NCBI RefSeq assembly: GCF_000702425.1
Contig: NZ_JNIE01000004.1
Span: forward strand, 62,001 to 126,000
Reading direction: 5' to 3'
Source: Thermocrinis jamiesonii
GTDB taxonomy: Bacteria; Aquificota; Aquificia; Aquificales; Aquificaceae
DNA: 64,000 bases
Shown: one piece after another, positions 19,165-24,590 of the stretch
Layout: the number at the start of each line of letters is the position of its first letter
How positions within the stretch are numbered: the stretch's first letter is position 1
Program-made: the position numbers and the translations under genes
The notes under the pieces: model-generated
Told to the model about the DNA's origin: nothing
The model's database searches: none
What the model saw: the letters and a program-made list of their open reading frames with translations, nothing else

Positions 19165-19566
19165 ATGATAAGCATTATCATCAAGCTGCTGGTTGTGGGA
19201 TTGCTCTTATATGGAAATGCTTTTGCCGATGATAAAATAAATAGGGCTATATCTGAAAACAAGTTGGTTGTATTCTACTTTAAAAGCCAGTTTTGTTCTT
19301 ACTGTGCGCAGGTAGAGGACTTTGTTTTTTCAGATGAGGAAGTGTTTAAAAAGCTCTCCAACTTCGTGTTTGTAGAGTTAGACATAAGGTCAGATGAAGG
19401 AAGCAAGTTAGCCAGAAAGTTTGGTGTGCCAGGAACTCCCACCGTTGTGATATATGACCCAAAAACAGATAAGGTAGTTGGTTTGATCTTTGGTAGCAGA
19501 CCAAAAGAGGACTATCTGAAAACCATAAACAAAGCTTGCAAGCTTTATAACATAAAAACCTGTTAG
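19165..19566 (+). CDS. Periplasmic thioredoxin-like protein of the sox cluster (SoxW-like)
   Basis: A 133-residue protein with a signal peptide (hydrophobic residues about 3-19, then A-F-A for cleavage). The redox site is S-Q-F-C-S-Y-C near residues 45-51 and the cis-Pro motif is G-T-P-T-V-V. These are thioredoxin features. SoxW-type thioredoxins in sox operons are thought to keep the SoxY cysteine usable or reduce it; this role is inferred from position 11 nt before soxY. A second, lipid-anchored thioredoxin is encoded at 4650. DsbD/CcdA, the usual electron donor, is not in the window. Confidence 0.8.
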   Translation: MISIIIKLLVVGLLLYGNAFADDKINRAISENKLVVFYFKSQFCSYCAQVEDFVFSDEEVFKKLSNFVFVELDIRSDEGSKLARKFGVPGTPTVVIYDPKTDKVVGLIFGSRPKEDYLKTINKACKLYNIKTC

Positions 19567-19577
19567 GAGGTTAAGCC

Positions 19578-20021
19578 ATGAACAGAAGGAAGTTTTTACT
19601 GCTAAGTGCAGTGGCGGTAGCTGGGCTAACCCTAGCGCCAGCAATCAAGCCAGCCTTTGCCTCTTCCAAGTTAGAGGAAGAGATTAAGAAAAGGATAGGG
19701 GTTGATCTAAGTGCCATCAAAGAAAGTGCAGATATCAAGCTAACCGCCCCAACCATCGCAGAATCTGGAGCGAACGTGCCAATAACGGTAGAATCCACCA
19801 TTCCTGTAGATAAGGTAGAAAGGCTTTGGATCTTTGTGGACAAAAATCCCGTACCGTGGATCGCAGATGTAAAGTTTACTCCAGAAAATGGAAAGGTTTA
19901 TCTTTCTACAAGGATAAAGATGGGAGGAACTTCCAACGTTAGAGCTATTCTTCAGCTAAAGGACGGAACCTTTGTAATGGCAACAAAAGAGGTTAAGGTT
20001 ACCGCCGGAGGTTGTGGTTAA
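19578..20021 (+). CDS. soxY: Sulfur-oxidation carrier subunit SoxY
   Basis: A 147-residue periplasmic carrier. A twin-arginine-type leader (N-R-R-K-F-L-L-L) is followed by a hydrophobic stretch and an A-F-A site. The sulfur-carrying cysteine is in the C-terminal G-G-C-G. Most SoxY proteins end G-G-C-G-G, so one glycine is absent here; the flexible arm is otherwise intact. SoxYZ holds the oxidising sulfur atoms of thiosulfate while SoxXA, SoxB and others act. An AGGAGG site precedes ATG. soxZ follows after 36 nt. Confidence 0.93.
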   Translation: MNRRKFLLLSAVAVAGLTLAPAIKPAFASSKLEEEIKKRIGVDLSAIKESADIKLTAPTIAESGANVPITVESTIPVDKVERLWIFVDKNPVPWIADVKFTPENGKVYLSTRIKMGGTSNVRAILQLKDGTFVMATKEVKVTAGGCG

Positions 20022-20057: not shown

Positions 20058-20384
20058 ATGGCTATAGGGACCGCTATAGTTCGTGTGCCAAAGGAAGCAA
20101 AAAAGGGTGAAATCATCAGAGTCCAAATGGTTATTACCCATCCTATGACGCCACCGAGGAAGGACCCGCAAACTGGGCAAGAAGTGCCTCCCCACAACTT
20201 AACCAAGCTCGTCCTTCTTTACAACGACAGAGTAGTTAGCGAGATGAACATGGGAGCGGGAGTGAGTGCCAATCCCTTTATAGCACTGCCTCTTAAGGTG
20301 GAGGAATCTGGGGTAATAAAGATAGCCTATGAAGACAACAAAGGAGGCAAATGGGAAAAAACCGCAGATATAAAAGTGGTGTAA
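20058..20384 (+). CDS. soxZ: Sulfur-oxidation carrier subunit SoxZ
   Basis: A 108-residue beta-sandwich partner of SoxY. The A-K-K-G-E-I-I-R-V-Q-M-V-I-T-H-P-M segment and the later L-V-L-L-Y-N-D-R-V-V motif are typical. Like other SoxZ proteins it has no signal peptide, so it is expected to cross the membrane together with SoxY by the Tat route. A strong AGGAGGTG site precedes the ATG. It stands between soxY and soxA, 14 nt before the latter, in the common Y-Z-A-X order. Confidence 0.93.
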   Translation: MAIGTAIVRVPKEAKKGEIIRVQMVITHPMTPPRKDPQTGQEVPPHNLTKLVLLYNDRVVSEMNMGAGVSANPFIALPLKVEESGVIKIAYEDNKGGKWEKTADIKVV

Positions 20385-20398
20385 AGGAGGTTTAAACC

Positions 20399-21238
20399 AT
20401 GGGTAAGAAAGCTATTCTTCTGAGTGCTGTCCTCACCAGCCTTTTGGGGGCTGGCTTTGTAGGTTATAAGCACGCAAAAGCCCAAGACCAAGAGCTTTCC
20501 CCTGAAGAGGAAATAAGGCTTGTTCAGGAGTTCAACAGAATGCTGGCCGAAGGGATAAACCCAGGGGAGATATGGGCTGAAATGGGTAAGGAAGCGTTCA
20601 AGAAGTATAATCTTGACAAGTGTGATTTTGGTTTGGGACCAGGAAAGATAGAGGGAGCCCTTGCCCAACTTCCACGATACTTTCCAGATGCCAAAAAGGT
20701 AATGGACCTTGAGACAAGGATTGGTTGGTGTCTACAGCAGTATGCAGGTATGACACCAGACCAGGTTAAAAAGTTTGCAAAAGAGTGCTGGGGTAAAAGG
20801 CAGTGTATGGGAGAGTATGATGCAATAGTTATGTATATCTCCATGGCTTCCAACGGATATAAGATAAACGTAAATCTCAAGGATCCTCAAGTTAAGAGAA
20901 TGTACGAGATAGGAAAGAGGATCTACTATACAAGGCTTGGACCTTGGGACTTTAACTGCGCTACCTGTCATGCGGGGCAAAAAGAAGCGAGAATAAGAGC
21001 AACCCGTCTTTGGAGTGCGGACAGACCAGGGGAAGCTGGAAAGGCTGTCTCTATATTCCCCAAATACTTGGTAAGATGGTCTCAGCCTATGACCATGCAT
21101 TACAGATATGCGGAGTGTATAAGACAGATGAGATGGCCCACCTTTGAACCCCATTCGGACTTAGCAGTTGCTCTATCCACATTCCTGTATGCTACCGGCA
21201 ACGGCACCGAAATAAAAGTACCAGGTATAGGGAGGTAA
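20399..21238 (+). CDS. soxA: Cytochrome c subunit SoxA (single heme site)
   Basis: A 279-residue periplasmic c-type cytochrome. It has a signal peptide (residues about 1-28) and one heme-binding site C-A-T-C-H near residue 190. The later A-E-C-I-R-Q-M-R segment holds the cysteine that serves as heme ligand and site of thiosulfate conjugation in known SoxA. The N-terminal half has several cysteines (C-D-F-G, W-C-L-Q, E-C-W-G, Q-C-M-G) but no second CxxCH, so this is a monoheme form in which cysteines may pair as disulfides. With SoxX it attaches thiosulfate to SoxY. SD AAAGGAGG precedes ATG; soxX starts 3 nt after the stop. Confidence 0.93.
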   Translation: MGKKAILLSAVLTSLLGAGFVGYKHAKAQDQELSPEEEIRLVQEFNRMLAEGINPGEIWAEMGKEAFKKYNLDKCDFGLGPGKIEGALAQLPRYFPDAKKVMDLETRIGWCLQQYAGMTPDQVKKFAKECWGKRQCMGEYDAIVMYISMASNGYKINVNLKDPQVKRMYEIGKRIYYTRLGPWDFNCATCHAGQKEARIRATRLWSADRPGEAGKAVSIFPKYLVRWSQPMTMHYRYAECIRQMRWPTFEPHSDLAVALSTFLYATGNGTEIKVPGIGR

Positions 21239-21241
21239 AAG

Positions 21242-21904
21242 ATGAGGAAAAGAGTTTTGATTGCAAGCTTGTTAATAGCTGGTTTGCCACTTATCGCTGT
21301 ATCTAAGCAAAAACAAAAAGAATCTGTGAAAGAAGAAGAAGTAATGGCAGTGCTAAAAAGTGGGCTAGATCAGGATCCAAGGTTTGCGTGGAAGCTCAAT
21401 CAAGACGAATCCCAAAAAATATGCTCTAAGTATCCATCCAGAGAGGCAATGCCTGCAAAGGAAATTCAAAGGGTGATGGAGCTTGAAGCAAAAAATATAA
21501 AGTATCCACAGTGGGGTATATACTGGGGAGATTGGAATGAGGGTAAAAAGCTCGTGAATAGTTCAAGGGGTGGAAGGTTTGCAACTTATGGTTTTTCCGA
21601 CAAACCTACAGATAAGGGTGGAAACTGCTATGCTTGCCACCTTATAGAAAAGGGAGTTCCCGGTGGAACGATGGGTCCCCAGCTTACAGGTTATGGCAAA
21701 AGGTATGGCATTACCAAAGAGAATATGAACACACCCGAAGGCTTGGAAAAGCTGAAAACCGTGTATAACATCATCTACAACGCTTGGTCTTTGTATCCCT
21801 GCTCGTCTATGCCCAGGTTTGGGTATCACGGCGCTCTTACCCCAGAGGATATAATAAATATAGCGACTTTCTTACTACATCCTGACTCTCCTGTAAACAA
21901 GTAA
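21242..21904 (+). CDS. soxX: Cytochrome c subunit SoxX
   Basis: A 220-residue c-type cytochrome with a signal peptide, one heme site (N-C-Y-A-C-H, near residue 130) and a methionine ligand in S-S-M-P-R-F-G. These define SoxX, the electron-accepting partner of SoxA. It is longer than the smallest SoxX proteins because of an N-terminal extension of about 90 residues before the heme domain, as seen in other epsilonproteobacterial and Aquificales types. It starts 3 nt after soxA. An intrinsic terminator follows the stop and separates it from soxB. Confidence 0.92.
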   Translation: MRKRVLIASLLIAGLPLIAVSKQKQKESVKEEEVMAVLKSGLDQDPRFAWKLNQDESQKICSKYPSREAMPAKEIQRVMELEAKNIKYPQWGIYWGDWNEGKKLVNSSRGGRFATYGFSDKPTDKGGNCYACHLIEKGVPGGTMGPQLTGYGKRYGITKENMNTPEGLEKLKTVYNIIYNAWSLYPCSSMPRFGYHGALTPEDIINIATFLLHPDSPVNK

Positions 21905-21957: not shown

Positions 21958-23700
21958 ATGGCAATCTCAAGAAGGGAATTGCTGAAAAGTTCTGCTTTTT
22001 TGGGTTTAATCGCTCTTGGTGGAACGTCTTTTGCAAAAAGGAGAAAGCCCTCTTTTGAAGAACTATTAGACTTTAAAAGTTACGGAAACCTTACTTTGAT
22101 CTTTACTTCGGATATTCATGGACACTTAAAGCCAGTATATTTCCCAGAGCCCATGAATTTGTTAGCTCCCAACGAGCTAAGGGGAACGCCTGGTTTTCTA
22201 ACTGGAACGGAATTTATGAAGTATTACAACATAAAACCCGGCAGTGTGGAAGCTTACACTATGACTTGCAGTAGCTTTATAAGGCTTGCAAGAGAATACG
22301 GAAAGACGGGTGGTGCTCCACAAATGGCTACTGTGATAAAGACCATTGTGCAACAAAGGGGAAGGGACAAGTGTCTCATTCTTGACGGTGGAGACACTTG
22401 GGTTACATCCGGTATATCCCTAAAAACAGATGGAATGGCAGTAGTAGATTGGCTAAACTACATAGGTTATGACTACATAGTGGGGCACTGGGACTTTACA
22501 GTAGGAAAGGAAAAGTTTTTGGAAATTGTCAATAAACACCTGAAGGCAAAGTTTATTTCCTACAACATAACTGATGACCTTTTTGGAGACCTTATATTCC
22601 CCCCATACGATGTAAGGGAGGTAAATGGTGTTAAGGTTGGAATAATAGGTAGCTCGTTCCCATTCACTCCCATAGCTAATCCAAGGGTTTACACAGAAGG
22701 TTGGAGGTTTGGAGTAAGACCAGAGGAGCTTCAAAATTACGTAAATGAGCTGAGGGAAAAGCACAAAGTAGATTTGGTCATTCTACTGTCCCACGATGGA
22801 CTACCCTTAGACATAGCGCTGATGAAAATAGTAAAAGGAATAGACATAGTTATTTCTGGACATACCCACGATGTAACACCTGCGCCTGTGAAAGTTGGGG
22901 ACACGCTTATAGTATCTCCGGGTAGCCATGGAAAGTTTGTGGGAAGAATGGACTTGGAAGTCAGTAAAGGTAAGCTTGTAGGATACAGGTTTAAGCTAAT
23001 ACCTGTTCTGTCGGAGGTAATACCCGAGGACAAAGGAGCTAAGGAGCTTGTGCAAAAGTGGTATAAGCCTTACGAAAAGGAATTCAACACAGTAATAGGC
23101 ACAACGCGCACGTTCCTTTACAAGAGAGACACACTTTACAGCACTTGGGACAGGTTGATAGGAGAAGCTTTGGCAGATTATTTCCATGGAGTGGATGCGG
23201 TAATGTCCTTGGACGTCGCAACTTCTCCGGGCTATAGATGGGGTCCTGCAGTTCTTCCCAACAGTCCCATCAGAGTGGAGGACGTGTATAATGTGCTTGG
23301 TATAACTTACCCTGAGGTTTTCCTCCTAAGGAGAAAGGGAAGAGACCTTTTGGTGCTTTGGGAGGACATAGCGGATAACGTATTCAACCCAAACCCACTC
23401 TATCAGCAAGGTGGAGATATGTCAAGGATATATGGAGTGGAGTACGAACTGAAGATAAATGCCAAGCAAGGGGAAAGAATAAGAAACGTGAGAATAAAGG
23501 GCAAACCTCTTGAAGCGGACAAGGAATACCTTGTAGCAGTTTATGGCGGACCACCACCTCCAGGAGTGGAACCAGAAAAGGTAAATATCAGAGATATCGT
23601 GATAAACTACATAAAGAAAAAGAGGGAGATAGTGGTTGAGAGGAAGCCAAACGTGAAGGTTTTAGACCATCCCTACAACACAGATTGCTTTTGGAGGTAA
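21958..23700 (+). CDS. soxB: Thiosulfohydrolase SoxB
   Basis: A 580-residue dimanganese hydrolase of the 5'-nucleotidase-like metallophosphatase family. It begins with a twin-arginine leader (S-R-R-E-L-L-K) for export. Metal-binding motifs are T-S-D-I-H-G-H (about residue 51), D-G-G-D-T-W, G-H-W-D-F (where nucleotidases have G-N-H-E/D) and S-G-H-T-H-D. SoxB cleaves the terminal sulfone from SoxY-bound S-thiosulfonate as sulfate. A GAGGAGG site precedes ATG 21958. It lies after the terminator, 2 nt before the tandem DUF302 gene. soxCD is not found here. Confidence 0.95.
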   Translation: MAISRRELLKSSAFLGLIALGGTSFAKRRKPSFEELLDFKSYGNLTLIFTSDIHGHLKPVYFPEPMNLLAPNELRGTPGFLTGTEFMKYYNIKPGSVEAYTMTCSSFIRLAREYGKTGGAPQMATVIKTIVQQRGRDKCLILDGGDTWVTSGISLKTDGMAVVDWLNYIGYDYIVGHWDFTVGKEKFLEIVNKHLKAKFISYNITDDLFGDLIFPPYDVREVNGVKVGIIGSSFPFTPIANPRVYTEGWRFGVRPEELQNYVNELREKHKVDLVILLSHDGLPLDIALMKIVKGIDIVISGHTHDVTPAPVKVGDTLIVSPGSHGKFVGRMDLEVSKGKLVGYRFKLIPVLSEVIPEDKGAKELVQKWYKPYEKEFNTVIGTTRTFLYKRDTLYSTWDRLIGEALADYFHGVDAVMSLDVATSPGYRWGPAVLPNSPIRVEDVYNVLGITYPEVFLLRRKGRDLLVLWEDIADNVFNPNPLYQQGGDMSRIYGVEYELKINAKQGERIRNVRIKGKPLEADKEYLVAVYGGPPPPGVEPEKVNIRDIVINYIKKKREIVVERKPNVKVLDHPYNTDCFWR

Positions 23701-23702
23701 AA

Positions 23703-24590
23703 ATGGTAAAGGTGCTTTTAATTACCCTCCTGCTCTTTCTCTTTTCTTTTGCCAAAGACCCTATAAGGGCAATGTATCTGACCTATCCCCTAAGGGAAAA
23801 GGACTTCAAAAAGGCGGTGGATAAGTTAAAAGAAGGAATGGAAGGAAGACAGGTAAAAGTTATAAGAGTTTTAACCATCTCCGATGCTATAAGGGCGAGA
23901 GGTTCTACCGAATTTCCAAACTACTATGTTATCTTTGGTTGTGAAACGCCCAAGATGAAGGAAATTCTCACAAAAGCGCCAGCTTTGAGCAACGTCATTC
24001 CCTGTAGCATTGCGGTTCATCAATCAAAGGAGAATGGTAAAATATACGCTACGATAATAAACGAGAATATGTTTCTTTCTAAGTATGGACACAAGCTTAC
24101 CAAAGAGGAAAGGATGGAGATAAAAAAGACTTATAGAAATATTAGGCTTGTCTTAACCCAAATGAGCGGTGTAAGGTTAAAACCTGCTAAGATGCAAGCT
24201 ATAAACCAAGAACTGGTTTATGAAGAGGAAGTTAAAAATTTAGCCTACGACGATTTCAAGATACTTTTTAAGACATCCCTTGACGGGGTAAATATGAACG
24301 TGTTGGATGTGTTGGATGTTAGCGAAGAATCTCCAAAGTTTTCCATATTCTTAGCGTGTAACCTATCTTACGGAGAGGCAATACTTAAGGATATTCCCCA
24401 ATTTGGCACTTTAGCACCCTGCAGGGTTTATGTTTACGAAAAACCTGACGGTTCGGTGGGTGTGGGATACATAAACATACCTTTCCTTTTAAAGTCTTAC
24501 GAAAAACACATGAGCAAAGAGAAGGCTGAGATATTCCGCAAAGCGGATCAAGATATAAAATCTGCCATAAAAGAAGCAAAGGGTGAGTAA
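23703..24590 (+). CDS. Exported protein with two DUF302-type domains
   Basis: A 295-residue protein with a signal peptide (L-L-L-F-L-F-S-F-A). The mature part is a duplication: each half has a cysteine in F-G-C-E-T-P-K-M or L-A-C-N-L-S-Y-G, then a leucine-rich stretch, then a second cysteine in I-P-C-S-I-A-V or A-P-C-R-V-Y-V, then a G-K-I-Y-A-T-I-I-N or G-S-V-G-V-G-Y-I-N strand. This C-x-n-C-x-V-Y-x-n-N/I-x-x pattern is DUF302. I chose ATG 23703, since GGAGG at the soxB 3' end is well placed. Position suggests a periplasmic accessory to sulfur oxidation; the four cysteines could bind sulfur or metal. No function is established. Confidence 0.8.
   Translation: MVKVLLITLLLFLFSFAKDPIRAMYLTYPLREKDFKKAVDKLKEGMEGRQVKVIRVLTISDAIRARGSTEFPNYYVIFGCETPKMKEILTKAPALSNVIPCSIAVHQSKENGKIYATIINENMFLSKYGHKLTKEERMEIKKTYRNIRLVLTQMSGVRLKPAKMQAINQELVYEEEVKNLAYDDFKILFKTSLDGVNMNVLDVLDVSEESPKFSIFLACNLSYGEAILKDIPQFGTLAPCRVYVYEKPDGSVGVGYINIPFLLKSYEKHMSKEKAEIFRKADQDIKSAIKEAKGE

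Follow-up and report, generated by a model that had tools for sequence, protein, structure and literature searches.

In all 71 fetched sox clusters of Aquificota in which the position could be judged (71/71), a gene for a DUF302 protein lies directly downstream of soxB on the same strand. It does so too in the window (the whole stretch of 64,000 nucleotides analysed here), where two DUF302 domains are joined in one protein. Our preferred reading, held tentatively, is that this protein may assist the carrier cycle of Sox in the periplasm, where its cysteine pair would handle sulfane sulfur or thiol near the SoxB step. According to an excerpt of PMC6335251, SoxXA loads thiosulfate on SoxY and SoxB frees sulfate, and in truncated Sox systems SoxYZ is inferred to lose the sulfane atom through a mechanism not yet known. 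The clearing of SoxYZ without SoxCD is, in that excerpt, an acknowledged gap, for which a DUF302 gene that follows soxB, is kept in two families, and carries paired cysteines is a concrete, testable candidate. SoxYZ carrying sulfane sulfur has been proposed as the true working carrier (excerpt of PMC5336275). The additions to published work are the fixed coupling to soxB, the gene pair A-B with its fusion, the cysteines that are either both present or both absent, and the negative result of the SoxCD test.

The sox cluster of the window and its DUF302 protein

The cluster has the gene order thioredoxin-soxY-soxZ-soxA-soxX-soxB, followed by the two-domain DUF302 gene, all on the forward strand. 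Its first gene (19165..19566) encodes an exported thioredoxin-fold protein (Pfam Thioredoxin_2, E 1.2e-13), which from its position would be SoxW-like. Then come soxY, with the C-terminal GGCG carrier arm (19578..20021; TIGR04488, 159 bits, cut-off 125), soxZ (20058..20384; TIGR04490, 89.2 bits, cut-off 76), soxA (20399..21238; TIGR04484, 218.4 bits, cut-off 110), soxX (21242..21904; TIGR04485, 87.4 bits, cut-off 61), and soxB (21958..23700; TIGR04486, 715.7 bits, cut-off 550). The host is a sulfur oxidiser and probably loves heat. Its best match to the SoxC model TIGR04555, for which the cut-off is 420 bits, reaches 38.7 bits, and no SoxC over the cut-off was found in any of 136 Aquificota genomes, this one included. 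The absence of SoxCD that the earlier note had asserted thus holds as far as SoxC is concerned.

The DUF302 gene (23703..24590, forward strand) is an uninterrupted reading frame for 295 amino acids that starts 2 nt past the soxB stop. Its Shine-Dalgarno sequence GGAGG (23693..23697, forward strand) is contained in the 3' end of soxB, and the translation of the two genes is therefore probably coupled. The whole protein matches Pfam PF03625 in two stretches (78.6 bits, cut-off 23, E 3.2e-22), and the two domains scored separately in the genome search reach 36.1 and 47.9 bits, both over the cut-off. Judged by eye, the protein begins with what looks like a Sec-type signal peptide, which points to export. 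The Pfam matches, the coordinates, and this signal confirm the earlier description of an exported protein with two DUF302-like halves, 2 nt after soxB.

We call the halves domain A (about residues 22-160; 23766..24182) and domain B (about residues 168-293; 24204..24581), because the corresponding halves of related fused proteins cluster with stand-alone A and B genes in a tree from which the window protein itself is absent. Domain A carries Cys80 (23940..23942) and, in a PC motif, Cys101 (24003..24005); domain B carries Cys219 (24357..24359) and, again in a PC motif, Cys240 (24420..24422), all on the forward strand. The spacing is 21 residues in each half (CX20C), and the two cysteines per half at matching positions, claimed before, are therefore real for this protein.

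An AlphaFold model of the protein (pLDDT 90.1, pTM 0.85) was used for a fold search, in which the second domain matched the solved DUF302 structures 1q9u, with Z 13.7 over 120 residues, and 1j3m, with Z 12.1 over 119; the Brucella entry 7tj1 gave Z 13.0. All clear matches of the model are DUF302 structures. Those beyond the family (KA1, Flpp3, PR-10, and others) stay at Z < 8, and we took them as a common arrangement only. The entry 7tj1 is titled CrcB fluoride transporter and has the DUF302 fold; the title looks wrong. A search of NCBIfam with the protein gave no match at E<=0.1, so that the SoxC model TIGR04555 is not matched either. The sequence contains no CXXCH heme motif, no CXXC by its cysteine positions, and no cofactor motif that we could see. 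A plasmid search with the protein as query returned no match; this search was insensitive, because two-domain DUF302 proteins do exist in plasmids.

The genome holds a second, single-domain DUF302 gene (L140:9455-9835), with no evident signal peptide. Such a gene stands beside a ribD-like gene in four of the five loci read from family f1 of Aquificota (L140, L141, L143, and L145, not L142), with a prfB-like gene nearby in L140 and L141 (ribD-like and prfB-like are names given by eye).

A DUF302 gene pair tied to soxB in Aquificota

The sample comprised 136 Aquificota genomes, 76 of which have SoxB over the cut-off, at 77 places; 13 genomes with SoxB matches only under the cut-off were left out. 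Of the 77 places, 72 were fetched (L068-L139) and the window is one more; the remaining places (G011, G012, G013:C79, and G074) were left out, although the genome search shows a DUF302 match beside soxB in G011 and G074. DUF302 proteins were called with an HMM seeded with the halves of the window protein, and L079 was dropped from the count of adjacency because its contig stops within soxB. The gap between soxB and the DUF302 gene ranges from -44 to +19 nt in 70 loci and is 319 nt in one; these values use longest-ORF starts and may overstate the overlaps. The arrangement occurs in both families sampled, labelled here by the codes f1 (47 loci) and f2 (24 loci), as genera are by g1 and so on. 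Among soxB-less genomes with a completeness of 99% or more, DUF302 is missing from G030 and G104, and G092 has one in a 173-aa frame that resembles one lying away from soxB in G082.

An adjacency shared by every judgeable cluster is not chance. That a general DUF302 protein merely sits in the operon is accordingly very unlikely: the linkage runs through two families, and the stand-alone DUF302 of the window's own genome belongs to another tree group than the sox-linked type (SH-aLRT 100). This alternative draws on how common the family is, with DUF302 in 184 of 398 Pseudomonadota genomes (41 of the 60 with SoxB and 143 of the 338 others, a split counted by hand). So common a family is, taken overall, not specific to sulfur, which also weighs against our preferred reading, as does the second own copy beside a ribD-like gene.

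The tandem protein is one form of a DUF302 gene pair, A-B. In f1, 24 loci have a fused A-B gene (genera g1, g4, g5, g7, and g9), 20 have separate genes, two lack a called B, and one is cut; no B was called in L105 and L117. The 20 separate pairs have A followed by B with an overlap of 4 nt in 17 and of 28 nt in three. In a quick tree of chosen rows (reduced from 175 to 116), the N-terminal halves of 11 of 14 fused proteins cluster with the 12 A genes that stand alone (SH-aLRT 98), and the C-terminal halves of 11 of 14 cluster with 11 of 12 such B genes (SH-aLRT 99). Long-branched rows of g5 and one B row of g10 fall outside the two groups. The clustering of fused halves with separate A and B genes argues that A and B may act together as a heterodimer, of which the tandem would be a fused version, a pseudo-heterodimer of two old partners.

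In f2, an A gene is present in all 24 loci and a distant B-like gene in 22. One clear DUF302 gene follows soxB, often with a lipoprotein-type start (by eye), and four loci read gene by gene (L070, L082, L083, and L087) have a gene of about 425 aa after it and the distant B-like gene beyond. The one such protein of about 425 aa that was tested (L083:6194-7474) matches Porin_O_P. Because the B-like proteins of f2 were called by a purpose-built iterated HMM only, and both of the two tested fail Pfam DUF302, the A-B pairs of this family are uncertain. A Porin_O_P gene also adjoins sox genes in L127.

The cysteines are kept or lost together. The column of Cys80 is a cysteine in 67 of 71 A domains, each with a partner at one of three places (as PC in 46, as CP in 13, and as C+5, five residues past the first, in 8); the other four have neither cysteine, and none has the first alone. 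Among 66 B domains, 41 have both cysteines by column (40 by motif) at the positions of Cys219 and Cys240, and 25 have neither (22 of f2 and three of g10). At least one domain with a pair is found in 70 of 71 loci, eight of them solely through the C+5 partner; the exception, L133, is cut by a contig end. Both domains carry pairs in 38 of the 66 loci with two called domains, and three fusions of g5 have one half with a pair and one without, as do the two-domain proteins near sox genes in other phyla (L148 and L149). The wider rule across loci is therefore at least one pair, not pairs in both domains. The second cysteine would have moved in few events, about two within f2 by the tree plus one for a CPY form in Alphaproteobacteria, and this small number is a point against the preferred reading.

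A pair that comes and goes as a unit fits the handling of sulfur or thiols as judged from the sequences. It also agrees with a reductant or shuttle for thiols and disulfides that would keep the cysteine of SoxY in a usable state; the thioredoxin-fold gene in the same cluster could be adduced for such a role as well. Yet that cluster then already has a thioredoxin, a second pair-bearing domain would be superfluous, and CXXC is missing, so we consider this role quite unlikely.

Sox-linked DUF302 genes with and without SoxC

The earlier note had suggested that the protein possibly replaces SoxCD, had asked for a survey of DUF302 against soxCD status, and had named equal co-occurrence with soxCD-positive clusters as evidence against its idea. 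The survey found DUF302 at about equal frequency with and without SoxC. Of the 398 Pseudomonadota genomes, which were drawn evenly from the phylum, 60 have SoxB, and 38 of these have SoxC over the cut-off. DUF302 near soxB (within 8 kb, less where contigs end) occurs in 8 of the 38 genomes with SoxC and in 3 of the 22 without (Fisher p 0.73). A second set of 80 mostly alphaproteobacterial soxB loci has DUF302 in 16 of 67 with SoxC in the locus and in 2 of 13 without; a genome check of these 13 located a complete SoxC outside the locus in three cases and partial matches in another two, which changes the counts to 16/72 and 2/8. DUF302 calls in the surveys were made with our own HMM or phmmer, and Pfam confirms all five that were tested (L249, L268, L274, L278, and L286). 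One of the eight cases with SoxC, L289 (genome G467), has no Pfam match at genome level, and two cases with SoxC, L225 of the 80-locus set and L286 of the even draw, lack the cysteine pair and lie upstream of soxX. Two further cases join DUF302 to SoxC: Allomeiothermus silvanus (L148), with a two-domain DUF302 one gene away from soxC, and Methylosinus, with SoxC on the same plasmid as DUF302 near soxB.

An analogue of SoxCD should be restricted to genomes without SoxC. This is not the case for DUF302 near soxB, and holds only for the subtype directly after soxB, which we found in the 71 Aquificota loci and the window, in 3 of 22 pseudomonadotan genomes without SoxC, and in 0 of 38 with it. That distribution, the lack of SoxC over the cut-off throughout the Aquificota sample, and the earlier report of DUF302 in soxCD-less clusters (excerpt of PMC5037610) are what speaks for a protein that oxidises or removes SoxY-bound sulfane sulfur in place of SoxCD. 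Besides the two surveys and the two-domain form near soxC in L148, this idea is opposed by the missing cofactor motif, by the sHdr-type genes of the window's own genome (below), and by Thiobacillus thioparus, whose soxXYZAB operon, as given in an excerpt of PMC5248467, has no soxCD and no DUF302. We rejected it as the main reading after the surveys and regard it as highly improbable. The surveys thereby correct an idea that had been published and then proposed anew: a DUF302 gene in the vicinity of sox genes does not mark the absence of SoxCD.

The same excerpts (PMC5037610 and PMC5248467) describe DUF302 beside sox genes without soxCD in Acidithiobacillia and, from a comparison with trithionate-using organisms, offer the speculation that it takes part in trithionate use. 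A trithionate or polythionate enzyme is scarcely credible given that DUF302 occurs in SoxC-containing clusters too and that the clear fold matches are all to DUF302 structures.

The position of the gene bears on another alternative, in which the protein helps to fold or metal-load SoxB, or tethers SoxB and SoxYZ, and the cysteines are a structural disulfide or metal ligands. The strict coupling to soxB in Aquificota speaks for it, and cysteines that are either both present or both absent fit a structural disulfide too. However, DUF302 in SoxC-containing clusters sits downstream of soxC (14 of 16 in the 80-locus set and 7 of 8 in the even draw, with the other three upstream of soxX) and not beside soxB, and 49 of the 60 pseudomonadotan genomes with SoxB have no DUF302 near it. 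We regard this alternative as unlikely, though with a real chance of being right. Because 18 of 21 SoxC-lacking pseudomonadotan regions and the region of G137 (read as L170) also have none near soxB, many Sox systems run without DUF302, which counts against the preferred reading as well.

Some records deserve mention in their own right. In two Pseudomonadota genomes (G259:C102:18158-20088 and G483:C1:5602501-5604428), a DUF302 gene and the gene of a SoxC-like dehydrogenase (485 bits in the first, 483 in the second) are some 0.7 kb apart, at a site distant from soxB. The sox clusters of L193 (titled Oceanobacillus) and L184 (titled Stygiobacter) are near alphaproteobacterial ones, and both records are probably contaminated or mislabelled.

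A proposed role on the carrier, and comparison with known systems

The window's own genome has an sHdr-type cluster (L308). It includes a DsrE gene, two ferredoxin-type HdrC-like genes, two CCG-domain HdrB-like genes, an FAD (HdrA-like) gene, two LbpA-type genes (GcvH-like), a second DsrE gene, and one for a radical-SAM protein; we assigned the terms sHdr and LbpA from domain order, and domain tests covered all but two of its ORFs. Routes of the sHdr type are of the kind by which organisms lacking SoxCD oxidise sulfane sulfur, and from these genes it is likely the downstream route of this genome, in which we found no match to the YeeE family and none to DsrA. sHdrB matches at E<=1e-30 occur in 19 of 20 tested f1 genomes (the match in G001 carries six in-frame stops), in 0 of 15 tested f2 genomes, and in 2 of 22 pseudomonadotan genomes without SoxC. 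DsrA over the cut-off was found in none of 11 tested Aquificota genomes (five of them of f2) and in 12 of 22 tested SoxC-lacking Pseudomonadota, including all three with DUF302 after soxB. No single route fits these distributions, and we discarded a tie of DUF302 to one of them. The presence of DUF302 beside soxB both in f1, with sHdrB, and in f2, without it, suggests that its role likely lies at SoxYZ/SoxB, before the routes part.

YeeE/SoxT was also dropped as a partner: the own genome has no match, and 7 of 15 tested Aquificota genomes match, six of them over the cut-off. DsrE proteins occur in 15 of 15 tested Aquificota genomes. One of them in the own genome, off the sox contig (L309:1355-1861 on G000:C7), has an exported-type, twin-arginine-like start (by eye). 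Family f2 (part of G064-G102) has soxB, but neither SoxC over the cut-off, nor sHdrB at E<=1e-30 (0/15), nor DsrA over its cut-off (0/5).

In the reading that we prefer, that of an accessory of the carrier cycle, the protein would be made together with SoxB, and A-B would dock on SoxYZ near SoxB. The cysteine pair would accept, park, or exchange sulfane sulfur (or a thiol or disulfide) at the arm of SoxY, close to the SoxB step, and SoxYZ would thereby be either cleared or held in its active, sulfane-carrying state. The protein would thus act upstream of the final oxidation of sulfane sulfur, probably by sHdr here, and not in place of SoxCD. We infer from sequence the heterodimer, the exchange of sulfane sulfur or thiol by the cysteine pair, and the exact step. 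That DUF302 turns up both in the presence and in the absence of SoxCD is easier to reconcile with an action on the carrier than with one in oxidation. Of the earlier suggestion of sulfane-sulfur handling or SoxY protection, the handling of sulfur or thiols is in keeping with an exported protein tied to soxB whose cysteines come in pairs, and the part of a stand-in for SoxCD is unsupported.

A bolder version would make the A-B pair the missing acceptor to which, in truncated Sox systems, SoxYZ passes its sulfane sulfur once SoxB has acted; the sulfur would be parked on CX20C (or the moved variants) and handed to a route of import or sulfur deposition. We hold this to be unlikely; if true, it would reveal a periplasmic sulfur carrier of a new class and the step that regenerates SoxYZ.

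In the literature searched, which covered few subscription journals, we found no account of the A-B pair of Aquificota, of its fused form, or of the shifts of the second cysteine. Excerpts of PMC9068703 and PMC7760498 held no relevant statement. Excerpts of published work call DUF302 a sox operon protein (PMC10512742), report a hypothetical gene adjoining soxB in both sox clusters of Acidithiobacillus (PMC6335251), and place DUF302 in an arsenic or sulfide-quinone-reductase setting (PMC5061849) and beside ccoG (PMC6515984); these last two settings count against the preferred reading. The SoxT (YeeE-like) importers and sHdr, as presented in an excerpt of PMC11582611, handle sulfane sulfur downstream of SoxYZ and are unrelated proteins. 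The second domain of the window protein shares its fold with TT1751 of Thermus thermophilus (1j3m), which has a C...PC motif, and with 1q9u; unlike the window protein, both are single-domain and are listed as of unknown function.

Other DUF302 proteins near sox genes resemble the window protein in part. Those of Acidithiobacillia and Thiohalorhabdus lie, like it, beside soxB in a cluster without soxCD (excerpts of PMC5037610 and PMC5248467), a setting that the window gene shares as judged by the SoxC model only. The protein of T. tepidarius, as the same excerpts give it, has 191 aa and is encoded between soxA and soxB, whereas the window has two fused domains after soxB. The Sulfitobacter DUF302 between soxF and soxH (excerpt of PMC11034169; compare L224, L277, and L278) is, like that of the window, an exported protein that bears a cysteine pair and is encoded among sox genes; SoxC is present in L224, the Sulfitobacter locus. 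The alphaproteobacterial sox-linked proteins, often near a YeeE gene, differ from the window protein in their single domain, in a CPY motif in place of PC, in the presence of SoxC at most loci, and in a tree group of their own (SH-aLRT 94).

The plasmids of Sulfurovum mangrovi and Allomeiothermus silvanus call for remarks on their records. In the former (L149:11700-17000), the two-domain DUF302 gene is flanked by two DsrE genes and follows MBL and DUF255 genes as well as fragments that resemble a porin, and soxB and the porin-like stretch are split over several frames. In the latter (L148:13502-14356, NC_014213.1), the DUF302 protein is annotated as 'translation initiation factor 2'; one of its domains passes Pfam (25.1 bits), and the second is called by our own HMM only. 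Both proteins, like that of the window, join two DUF302 domains near sox genes, and they differ from it in a first half without the cysteine pair, in a position several genes downstream of soxB, and, for L148, in the presence of soxC.
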